A stretch of 64,000 nt of DNA, from contig JAFLBN010000009.1 in NCBI GenBank assembly GCA_017303395.1, positions 92,746 to 156,745 on the forward strand, read 5' to 3'. The notes beneath the pieces were generated by a model, which saw nothing but the letters and a program-made list of their open reading frames with translations, was not told the origin of the DNA and made no database searches. The position numbers and the translations under genes are program-made. The stretch comes from Chitinophagales bacterium. GTDB taxonomy: Bacteria > Bacteroidota > Bacteroidia > Chitinophagales > Chitinophagaceae. Below, one piece after another: positions 37,218 to 40,189 of the stretch. The first letter of the stretch is position 1. Each line of letters starts with the position of its first letter.

Positions 37218-37772
37218 ATGCAAAGAAGAAGTAAAGGACCATACTTTAGACCGAGAGTACCACAAAACGAACATCGTTTAAACCGTGAAATCACTGCACA
37301 GGAAGTGCGTTTGATAGGCGAGGGCATAGAGCCAGCAGTCTACAAACTGGAAGATGCATTGAGGCTTGCACAAGAGCAGGAAGTAGATCTGGTAGAGATT
37401 TCTCCAAATGCAGTTCCTCCTGTGTGTCGTCTTATCGATTACAAAAAGTTCCTCTACGAAAAGAAGAAGAAGGATAAAGAACAGAAGGCAAAATCTAAGC
37501 AGTCTGAGCTGAAAGAAATCCGTTTTACACCAAATACGGACGAGCACGATTTCGACTTCAAAGCAAAACACGCAGAGAAGTTCTTGCAAGAAGGTAACAA
37601 GGTGAAATGCTATGTGCAGTTCAAAGGCCGTGCCATCATGTTTCAGGAACGCGGTGAGTTACTTTTGTTAAAATTTGCTGAGAGATTGGCGGAAGTAGGC
37701 TCACTGGAATCGATGCCTAAAATGGAAGGACGTAGGATGTTAGCCATCTTTACACCTAAGAAAAAGAAATAA
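37218..37772 (+). CDS. infC: Translation initiation factor IF-3
   Basis: 184 residues. The N-domain has LNREITAQEVRLIGEGIE and the conserved VDLVEISPNAVPPVCRLIDYKKF. A Lys-rich linker follows, then the C-domain with KEIRFTPNTDEHDFDFKAKHA. Here the start is a plain ATG rather than the rare codons of enterobacteria. In most Bacteroidota rpmI and rplT follow; here the next 331 bases hold only the duplicated RNA-like element and no L35 or L20 gene. Confidence 0.97.
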   Translation: MQRRSKGPYFRPRVPQNEHRLNREITAQEVRLIGEGIEPAVYKLEDALRLAQEQEVDLVEISPNAVPPVCRLIDYKKFLYEKKKKDKEQKAKSKQSELKEIRFTPNTDEHDFDFKAKHAEKFLQEGNKVKCYVQFKGRAIMFQERGELLLLKFAERLAEVGSLESMPKMEGRRMLAIFTPKKKK

Positions 37773-37811
37773 TATTCTGTTAATAACACAGATTAAAATT
37801 TTGTAAGAAAC

Positions 37812-37842
37812 TTGTTTTAAATTAAAACCCTTCTTACATTTG
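37812..37842 (+). promoter_or_regulatory. Promoter upstream of RNA element copy 1
   Basis: TTG (37812-37814), a 20-base spacer, then TACATTTG (37835-37842), an exact -7 box. Transcription should begin about 37847-37850. It lies 40 bases after the infC stop, with no downstream gene until 38104. Confidence 0.6.
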
Positions 37843-37847
37843 CATTA

Positions 37848-37946
37848 TAAAATCTGATACCATATAGCGCTTCGGCGTTTTATTATAAGAAGTTTTCATG
37901 GTGATAGGGTTTATAGGGGCTGGCCTGTTCTCAGGCTGGCTTTTTT
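37848..37946 (+). ncRNA. Predicted small RNA 1 (about 100 nt)
   Basis: Bounded by the promoter at 37812-37842 and the terminator T-run at 37941-37946. The 5' part holds a UUCG tetraloop hairpin, and the 3' part is the 62-nt repeat element with its terminator stem. No known RNA family is recognised. An 18-codon ATG frame also runs through the repeat but is not kept in copy 2. Confidence 0.45.
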
Positions 37947-37951
37947 GTTTT
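37890..37951 (+). repeat. 62-nt element, copy 1
   Basis: 58 of 62 bases match the copy at 38019-38080. It begins AAGTTTTCAT, has the conserved core GTGATAGGGTTTATAGGG, and ends in a hairpin (left arm near 37918-37927, loop TTCT, right arm 37932-37941) with a T run. The G-C and G-T pairs at 936-937 swap in the other copy while pairing is kept. Confidence 0.9.
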
Positions 37952-37984
37952 TAGAAATATTTATACCGCCATTGAAAAAAACTT

Positions 37985-38015
37985 TTTGGATAATTTTAAT
38001 CAATATTTAATTTTG
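37985..38015 (+). promoter_or_regulatory. Promoter upstream of RNA element copy 2
   Basis: TTTG (37985-37988), exactly 19 bases, then TAATTTTG (38008-38015): a full match to the Bacteroidota TTTG-N19-TAnnTTTG promoter. Transcription should start near 38020, at the first base of the repeat. Confidence 0.65.
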
Positions 38016-38018
38016 TAA

Positions 38019-38080
38019 AAGTTTTCATAGTGATAGGGTTTATAGGGGCTGGCCTGTTCTCAGGTCGGCTTTTTTATTTT
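38019..38080 (+). repeat. 62-nt element, copy 2 (predicted small RNA 2 or leader)
   Basis: It differs from copy 1 at four positions (38029, 38065, 38066, 38076). The terminator stem is intact, with loop TTCT and a T run at 38070-38075. The predicted transcript is only about 56 nt. The element ends 24 bases before the next ATG, so it could also be an attenuating leader of that gene. Confidence 0.85.
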
Positions 38081-38103
38081 ACATTAGCATACAAATACCA
38101 GGT

Positions 38104-39186
38104 ATGCCCCGTGTTTCTCTGATTGTCTTATTGATACTTTGTTTAGGATTTACAAGCAACGCACAACTGGCGTGCTATGTCAATATGCAAAACCAGGTGA
38201 TGGTTTGGGACAAGGGCATGATACGCAAAGTAGACTACTTGCCGCCCACTGAAGTGAAAGTAGGCAAAACAGCTATCCCGTATCTGGATAATACGCGCTC
38301 ATTCAAAATATATTATGGTGGTGGCGTTAAGACTGTCAACATCGGGTTTACGAACGAGTTTAAAGTGAGTGATAATCTGGTCACTTTTCTTAACAGTAAA
38401 TCATTGAATGTTTTTGATAATGGTAATATCAAAAATTTATCAACGTTTTGCTCGCAGTACTTTGTGGGCGATAGTGTTATCCTGTATTTTGACGGTATAC
38501 GTAGCGAGTATAAAGCTTACTACAACGGCAATGTATATCCCATAGAAGGTTTTCTGGCAGGCACACCACTGGAGGTGATAAAAGTATCAGACAATATTGC
38601 GGCGTATGATAACTATGCAAACCAATTCCGCATATTTTACCACGGGCAGATACTGGAACAGGAAAACTATGCAGTGAGTAGTTTTGAAGTAGGTCGTAAT
38701 ACAGTTGCATATCTTGATATCAATAGGCAATTCAAAATCTTTCACAGCGGGCAGACCTATGTTGTAGAAGACTTTCCACCACAAACCTATCAGGCAGGCG
38801 ATAATGTTGTAGCATTTGTATCAACAGATGGCTACTTCAAAATCTTCTACGGAGATAGTGTTCGTACTATAGGCTTCTTCTCTCCGCAAGATTTGCGTGT
38901 TGCAGACAACATGGTTGCGTACAGAGATCAGAGCGGTTATTTCAAAGTATTCTACAAAGGCAATATCTATTCTTTAGAAAGCTACTATCCCGATAAGTAT
39001 GTGATGCAGTACAACTCTATTGCTTACGTAAACAGAATAGGTATGCTGCGCCTGTTTACAGAAGGCGAAATATATGATGTTACCAATGCCGAACTGGAAA
39101 ACTGGGAAGTCAATTACGATGTCCTCAAATACCAGATAGGTATGAACATGTTCCGCATTTACCACAAAGGCAACGAGTACGATTAA
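38104..39186 (+). CDS. Secreted protein of about ten 35-residue repeats
   Basis: 360 residues; signal peptide MPRVSLIVLLILCLGFTSNAQ. The remainder is a regular repeat of about 35 residues with pattern 'VAYxDxxxxFKIFYxGxxxxxExFxPxxxxxxDN'. Clear units begin TVAYLDINRQFKIFHSGQ, VVAFVSTDGYFKIFYGD and MVAYRDQSGYFKVFYKGN, and about ten can be counted, the last one cut short. Short units with two to four strands suggest a beta-propeller or solenoid. I recognise no named family. There is no T9SS domain; it probably acts in the periplasm or at the outer membrane. It lies directly after RNA element copy 2. Confidence 0.75.
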   Translation: MPRVSLIVLLILCLGFTSNAQLACYVNMQNQVMVWDKGMIRKVDYLPPTEVKVGKTAIPYLDNTRSFKIYYGGGVKTVNIGFTNEFKVSDNLVTFLNSKSLNVFDNGNIKNLSTFCSQYFVGDSVILYFDGIRSEYKAYYNGNVYPIEGFLAGTPLEVIKVSDNIAAYDNYANQFRIFYHGQILEQENYAVSSFEVGRNTVAYLDINRQFKIFHSGQTYVVEDFPPQTYQAGDNVVAFVSTDGYFKIFYGDSVRTIGFFSPQDLRVADNMVAYRDQSGYFKVFYKGNIYSLESYYPDKYVMQYNSIAYVNRIGMLRLFTEGEIYDVTNAELENWEVNYDVLKYQIGMNMFRIYHKGNEYD

Positions 39187-39981: not shown

Positions 39982-40189
39982 TATGTATTCGCTGTGTGGT
40001 ACAATATTACGGTGTTAAAACCATATATGGCAGCCCAATCGCCATTTCCTTAACCGAAATCTTTTCTTAACTTAGCAGGCTAATGAAGCCAAACCGCATT
40101 ATTTAATATATATATAATTAATAACTAAGGAAAAGGCCGAATAGAAATGGAATAAACTAACGGACTAAAAGCAAAAGTTAAACAACATT

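Follow-up and report, generated by a model that had tools for sequence, protein, structure and literature searches.

A tandem pair of predicted small RNA genes downstream of infC and their FopS-like multicopy family in environmental Bacteroidota

The window analysed here, a stretch of DNA of 64,000 nucleotides, carries two short and nearly identical elements between infC and the gene for a 10-bladed beta-propeller protein, which begins 24 bases past the second element. The features of this locus, all of which lie on the forward strand, are as follows.

37218..37772, +, infC (translation initiation factor IF-3), the usual upstream neighbour (Pfam PF05198 and PF00707; synteny)
37812..37842, +, predicted promoter of copy 1: TTG, a 20-nt spacer and TACATTTG at 37835-37842 (sequence)
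37848..37889, +, predicted leader in the RNA of copy 1 (start placed by its distance from the promoter; upstream consensus)
37890..37951, +, copy 1, conserved element: 5' arm GUUUUCAUGGU, core, terminator and T run (sequence comparison)
37903..37919, +, near-invariant core of copy 1, GATAGGGTTTATAGGGG, with two TAGGG blocks (family conservation)
37919..37940, +, terminator hairpin of copy 1, nine named pairs (pairing and covariation)
37985..38015, +, predicted promoter of copy 2: TTTG, a 19-nt spacer and TAATTTTG at 38008-38015 (sequence)
38019..38080, +, copy 2, conserved element: 5' arm GUUUUCAUAGU, core, terminator and T run (sequence comparison)
38032..38048, +, near-invariant core of copy 2 (18-mer counts and family conservation)
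38048..38069, +, terminator hairpin of copy 2 (hairpin scan and covariation)
38104..39186, +, gene for the 10-bladed beta-propeller protein, the usual downstream neighbour (Pfam PF21734; synteny)

Alignment of the two elements confirms the first-pass annotation of this DNA in reporting 58 of 62 identical bases at a spacing of 129 bases, the mismatches falling at positions 37900, 37936, 37937 and 37947 of copy 1. An 18-mer common to both copies, GATAGGGTTTATAGGGGC, occurs twice in the window against an expectation of 0.02 when up to three mismatches are allowed, and none of 100 shuffles of the window contained it twice. The TAnnTTTG motif that had been described before each copy is indeed found at 37835-37842 and 38008-38015, the latter preceded at the full 19-nt distance by TTTG, and each copy does end in a hairpin, of 13 pairs, followed by a T run. 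Terminator-like sites of this kind number five in the 2.5 kb scanned compared with 1.9 in shuffles, so the hairpins by themselves are nothing special. The CT-to-TC change between the copies exchanges G-C for G-U at two pairs, so that the stem is preserved, as had been claimed, and it is one-sided between these two copies. In the window, every Rfam family stays below its gathering score.

Comparison with other genomes indicates that both copies are members of a family of predicted RNAs, multicopy and uncatalogued so far, in environmental Bacteroidota, with predicted lengths of about 60 nt, about 100 nt where a leader is included, and about 45 nt for short forms. With the 62-nt element as the query, the genome itself contains five strong copies, namely the pair and one each on contigs C12, C1 and C42, and matches with E < 1e-7 occur in 19 of 59 genomes (own included): all 15 of the genus, 4 of 21 other members of the family and none of 23 from other families. 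The homologues in relatives on which the first-pass annotation had made its reading depend are therefore present, in further genera as well as throughout the genus. A covariance model, R1, reaches 60 bits or more in 28 of 157 sampled family genomes, representing 17 of 101 genera; at E <=0.1 it matches in 140 of the 157, and many of these matches are probably plain terminators. Over 198 genomes of the order at E <=1e-5, the model adds three genomes from other families, at 30-35 bits only. The exact 18-mer is found in one of 395 genomes drawn from the class, which is the genome under study, and in at least 116 stretches of named records, most of those listed being titled Flavipsychrobacter, Taibaiella, Chitinophagaceae, Sphingobacteriales or unclassified Bacteroidetes/Bacteroidota; six distinct 18-mer matches have no terminator and look like chance. 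Carriage by phages or plasmids was considered and rejected. The exact core was found in none of the viral contigs searched, the 62-base copy 1 had no match among phages and one weak Streptomyces match (E 0.4) among plasmids, and with a 201-base query weak matches came up in 74 phage records and 10 plasmid records, those listed (20 of the 74 and all 10) lying over the AT-rich spacer and the promoter.

Some occurrences are of an unusual kind. The element is present in records titled Azovibrio restrictus, Phycisphaerales and Bacteroides sp. (L124, L185, L134 and L110), so the names or bins of these MAGs are probably wrong. Elsewhere in the genome under study, GATAGGGTTTATAGGGTTTATAGGGG lies between two ORFs on C42 at 40039-40065 (L007), where it includes a third ATAGGG unit and no terminator is seen downstream. 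Four further loci of this genome (L006, which sits between ORFs, L245, L251 and L253) have a same-sense match at or near TTCATGGTGATAGGG with no terminator in view, and may be remnants or other RNAs.

Alignment A1 of the family comprises 89 rows from 97 sequences (six, L080, L138, L144, L148, L171 and L188, were excluded because they have no terminator, L085 because it is decayed and L059 because its stem is shifted), and all 89 were found by the exact 18-mer; core constancy in A1 therefore arises by construction, and the conservation figure was taken instead from 61 distinct copies found by BLAST (70 rows minus duplicates, short rows and rows containing N), a word-seeded search that itself favours conserved cores. 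In this set each base of GATAGGGTTTATAGGGG is 97-100% identical, and each base of the arm TTTTCAT, counted from the second T, is 90-97% identical. In the terminator stem, 99.4% of cells are paired and two-sided changes affect six of the nine pairs, in 64 cells compared with 8.6 in shuffles and at most 25 in slid controls. The covariation score of the stem is 0.416 against 0.202, a value reached by none of 500 shuffles, while the number of pairs with two-sided changes, taken alone, is matched by 45 of the 500. The covariation sought in the first-pass annotation is thus present in the family, and from these comparisons constraint acts on the sequence of the arm and on the structure of the hairpin. 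The RNA would accordingly present an exposed 5' arm, UUUUCAURGU, joined to a core, GAUAGGGUUUAUAGGGG, that hardly changes. These parts behave as modules: AGTTTTCATAGTGATAGGGTTTA is retained beside unrelated terminators in L335 and L337, GGTTTATAGGGGCTGG and its terminator are retained without the 5' arm in L331-L333 and L361, and the 5' arm is likewise lost in L330, which retains AATAGGGTTTATAGGGGCTGG.

Gene types and promoter positions were counted over 212 loci assembled from two overlapping collections, with sequence duplicates removed for these counts only; the copies counted differ in sequence, but the relatedness of their genomes means that the counts are not of independent events, and 9 of 177 copies, which have no T run, were left out of the promoter counts. 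Directly after CAT, 39 of 41 copies that come first in a tandem have G and all 41 later copies have A, which defines a CAUGG subtype for the first position and a CAUAG subtype for the later ones; 95 other copies are single or have their partner outside the view. In 28 of 41 later copies TAnnTTTG lies 22-26 nt upstream of the core (shuffles: mean 0.28, maximum 3), which places the expected RNA start at the arm. In 35 of 40 first copies it lies 55-110 nt upstream (shuffles: mean 2.4, maximum 7), so the RNAs of first copies should carry a leader. Among single copies, 7 of 87 have the motif 12-13 nt upstream of the core (only this count is used, since the shuffles kept the last 14 bases and cannot serve as a control), and all seven lack TTCATRGT and have a predicted start at GATAGGG. 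Translation of a short peptide from the ATG at 37898 was rejected, since this ATG is not conserved, its third base being A in all 41 later tandem copies, and is also lost in the short variants.

The leader of first copies has features of its own. An ataAAGAaG box lies about 1-12 nt before TTTTCAT in tandem-first copies and is absent from the later-copy consensus; it is matched by the 3' end of the copy 1 leader, and a processing site or an extra seed is a possible role for it. A hairpin in the copy 1 leader, discerned by eye, is clear among close relatives only and was not retained. The predicted fold leaves the arm of copy 2 open and pairs that of copy 1 with its leader, which suggested that the leader masks the arm, but over 37 first copies the mean leader-arm pairing is 0.39 compared with 0.43 for shuffled leaders, and the suggestion was rejected.

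The position of the pair after infC is shared by many members of the family. Either infC or the propeller gene is present in 96 of the 212 loci, and both, in the same orientation, in 71, which represent 50 distinct places when judged by the 100 nt after infC. An exact core lies between the two genes in 70 of these loci and a diverged copy in the remaining one, L325. The infC-linked copies are syntenic across genera, and the gene order is kept even at an infC identity of only 73-75% (in L325 and Taibaiella records); in L323 and L324, with infC at 72%, a copy follows infC and no propeller match is in view. This arrangement, together with the 24-base distance between copy 2 and the propeller gene, is what would be expected if the elements were cis-acting attenuators or leaders of downstream genes, yet the three other copies in this genome stand beside unrelated genes, one of them 276 nt before a gene, one facing a gene on the opposite strand and one about 950 nt from the next gene, the propeller gene of L191 is about 800 bases away, the arm of copy 2 folds open, and leader-arm pairing does not rise above shuffles. 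An attenuating or leader function in cis is consequently improbable, and the duplicated attenuator leader that had been proposed as an alternative fares poorly.

A more specific form of cis control, a divergent leader of ribosomal protein L20, deserves mention given the position after infC. L20_leader (RF00558) has the lowest E-value of the sub-threshold Rfam matches, at 22.6 bits against a cut-off of 58.7, and L335 scores 34.6, but the alignment consists of the terminator and AT-rich flank, copies in this genome also occur elsewhere, and rplT is on another contig; this reading is already unsupported and was rejected as extremely improbable. The infC of this locus has no rpmI-rplT downstream (window positions 37218-38104), rplT being on contig C43 (L430).

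It could also be argued that the family is a dispersed repeat, or an ordinary terminator, with no function as RNA. The 3' ends do look like ordinary terminators, and some same-sense fragments in this genome occur without one, but the arm is retained with unrelated terminators, the synteny extends across genera, the promoters stand at fixed distances, the viral contigs lack the exact core, and copy 1 matches nothing in phages and, among plasmids, only weakly the Streptomyces record, all of which makes a functionless repeat or terminator highly unlikely. Family-wide comparison brings out promoter motifs at fixed distances, an exposed and constrained arm, a hairpin constrained in structure and a two-subtype tandem after infC, and the two copies are very probably sRNA genes of an uncatalogued, FopS-like multicopy family. 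Of the options in the first-pass annotation, two small RNAs of about 100 and 56 nt is the one better supported, by the multiple copies, the promoter distances, the covarying terminator, the recurrence across genera and the unrelated neighbours.

B. thetaiotaomicron has, according to PMC11697453, 14 FopS paralogues, sRNAs that each combine a single-stranded 5' seed with one terminator. They repress sugar-uptake genes of this gut bacterium by base-pairing with SusC-like mRNAs close to the start codon; the RRM protein RbpB binds and antagonises them, and their conservation is reported within Bacteroidaceae. FopS was picked as the comparison for its fit to the arm. The FopS model (Rfam RF04319, BTncRNA_FopS) aligns over its full length to both copies, at 19.3 bits against a gathering score of 56 (E 0.7), and FopS is not singled out by score: over the same stretch it is equalled or exceeded by RatA (on the minus strand), L20_leader, rli61 and L10_leader, whose scores rest on the terminator, its complement or AT-rich flank. 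The FopS cut-off is passed in none of 39 genomes (own included), weak matches occur also in the control genomes of B. subtilis and M. jannaschii, and 14 of the 85 listed sub-threshold matches in the 39 genomes are copies of the present family. When 123 stretches preceding terminators are ranked by similarity to FopS, the three sampled copies occupy ranks 1-3, with the next best at 12 compared with 13; an equally good alignment to FopS is reached by 442 of 20000 dinucleotide shuffles of the arm. In the converse search, model R1 did not find FopS in 30 FopS-centred loci.

FopS is above its cut-off in 5 of 198 genomes of the class, and in all five the genes typically have GTGTTTTTCATRGTATTAGATTTAAGGTTAAC after TAnnTTTG, and GTTTTTCATRGT with the same A/G variation as the present family. 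L358, from a genome rich in copies of the present family, has TTTTCATGGTGATAGATTTAAG, which lies between both families, and a FopS score of 29.4 bits; L358 and L192 look like bridges between them. Both families consist of short RNAs (predicted ones here), multicopy in one genome, with a TAnnTTTG promoter directly before the RNA, a single-stranded arm G-UUUUU-CAURGU with the same A/G position, a single terminator hairpin, and RRM proteins in the host. Of the hallmarks of FopS, the arm contains the R1-type seed UUUUUCAURGU (open in the fold of copy 2 and leader-paired in that of copy 1), there is a single Rho-independent terminator hairpin, and the five strong copies of this genome with their promoter motifs match the multicopy organization behind canonical sigma-ABfr-type promoters. 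The 3'-extended seed of FopS (its AUUAGAUUUAAGG part) is absent, with GAUAGGGUUUAUAGGGG in its place and L358 looking intermediate. The present family also differs in having the core GAUAGGGUUUAUAGGGG rather than AUUAGAUUUAAGGUUAAC, a tandem pair after infC with fixed G/A subtypes, some short members without a start-codon arm, and a SusC target class that is not recovered in this genome. From these comparisons FopS is the closest known family and common descent is probable, with the copies best described as FopS-like and not as proven members; the earlier judgement that the element matches no known family thus holds at Rfam cut-offs, but a recognisable relative exists.

The wider literature supplies further comparisons. 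GibS, another sRNA of B. thetaiotaomicron, shares the start-codon-pairing R1 seed with FopS according to PMC11697453 and PMC7366714, and in this respect resembles the present family. At about 145 nt, with two seeds, internal hairpins and a different promoter motif, GibS is otherwise unlike it. Qrr and LhrC are sibling sRNAs of other phyla; these and OmrA/B resemble the present family in having several near-identical sRNA genes per genome, and to our knowledge none of them is related to it in sequence. OmrA/B are named as sibling sRNAs from outside the phylum in PMC11697453. In the literature searched, which covered few subscription journals, no such RNAs were found described for Chitinophagaceae, the letters of the core or arm did not appear, and the FopS work was the only account of paralogous sRNAs in Bacteroidota; two papers treat FopS together with RbpB, one of them in a single mention, and among the titles listed from broader searches none concerned a family of this kind.

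The antisense of the arm is AC(C/U)-AUG-AAAA-C, and pairing with start codons was evaluated against several backgrounds, none of which revealed an excess. Arm and core showed no excess pairing over 40 shuffles in 717 start regions (a 22% sample of the genome, with genes and starts set by a simple ORF rule rather than by annotation): 118 regions reach -16 kcal/mol or lower, compared with 113 (sd 18) in shuffles and 147 in windows inside genes. The longest exact complement in these regions is 11 nt and occurs twice, and the reversed seed has one of 12. Genome-wide near-matches to the arm antisense outside the copies number 12, compared with 17 for the reversed control pattern, and 19 TonB-receptor-like genes, at a mean of -12.0 compared with -12.9, pair no better than background, the best of them (L227, -19.0) lying within the best 4% of background; no SusC scores above the family cut-off in this genome. 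These counts do not recover the target class of FopS, and few or short targets remain compatible with the absence of an excess.

The core suggests a different kind of partner. It reads GAUAGGG-UUUA-UAGGGG, with two UAGGG blocks four bases apart, and PMC5503513 and PMC1784105 report, respectively, that the RRMs of hnRNP A1 favour UAGG, with UAGGGA/U obtained by SELEX, and, in a table, an hnRNP A1 oligonucleotide with the tail uaugauagggacuuagggug, which contains GAUAGGGACUUAGGG. The high-affinity RNA and the core are alike in placing two UAGGG blocks in one short RNA, but the former was selected for a human two-RRM protein, and a kinship to binding by bacterial RRMs is hypothetical. By this analogy the two blocks may be bound by an RRM protein, and the double UAGGG as a protein site is a lead rather than proof. 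The chief rival to regulation by base pairing follows from it: the invariant core, and not pairing, would be the functional part, its UAGGG blocks being held by a single RRM or by an RRM with a glycine-rich tail, and the copies would titrate or recruit the protein. The core is near-invariant and is retained where the start-codon arm is missing, its blocks resemble the preference reported in PMC5503513 and the oligonucleotide tail in PMC1784105, and nine double-TAGGG sites occur in 826 kb, six within called genes and the other three being sRNA copies. Three RRM proteins are encoded in the genome, and the tail of one is rich in glycine and arginine (RGG-like); the proteins are similar to hnRNP A1/A2B1 among many RRMs, with poly(A)-binding protein scoring best, and L410, on C14, has 233 aa, a long GGYGGNRGG tail and an hnRNP-like layout. 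Against this, RRM_1 proteins are found in 35 of 39 genomes (all 15 of the genus), with and without the family, so the RRM genes do not track it; the three RRM genes have no arm and no paired TAGGG nearby, one having a single TAGGG 259 nt upstream, and a UAGGG preference of these bacterial RRMs is hypothetical. A purely protein-binding role is for these reasons a possible but unlikely account.

The reading preferred here is that two tandem, FopS-like short sRNA genes exert translational control in trans with an RRM partner, for which we estimate a probability of about one half. Each copy would be transcribed and act in trans. Start codons in the context AC(C/U)-AUG-AAAA are complementary to the arm UUUUCAURGU, which would keep some mRNAs from initiating translation, the mechanism established for FopS in B. 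thetaiotaomicron; the core would extend the start-codon pairing, dock an RRM-type protein (RbpB in the case of FopS), or both; and the two tandem subtypes would differ in target preference through the G/A base next to the start-codon complement. More speculative, and rather doubtful at present, is a scheme built on the hnRNP analogy in which an hnRNP-A1-like double UAGGG core is read by a bacterial RRM or RRM-RGG protein, so that the family would form an RRM-centred sRNA network in Bacteroidota with the start-codon-antisense arm as an optional module joined to the core. If the preferred reading is true, the family carries the FopS type, reported within Bacteroidaceae, into Chitinophagaceae; the natural full-length, arm-less and terminator-swapped versions would offer a sharp test of the role of the exposed arm, and the RNA specificity of bacterial RRM proteins would become directly testable with a 45-nt RNA.

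Two further observations concern sequences complementary to the arm or to start regions. At L251, 13 nt exactly complementary to the arm (ACCCTATCACCAT) lie about 47 nt before the start of a gene that, judging by its N-terminus, we take to be truA; by a rough estimate, about two such 13-nt complements are expected by chance per genome. In other genomes of the family, FopS-model matches (L196/L367 and L197/L366) are antisense to apparent start regions (TTAACC..ATGAAAAA) and adjoin a terminator-like hairpin.
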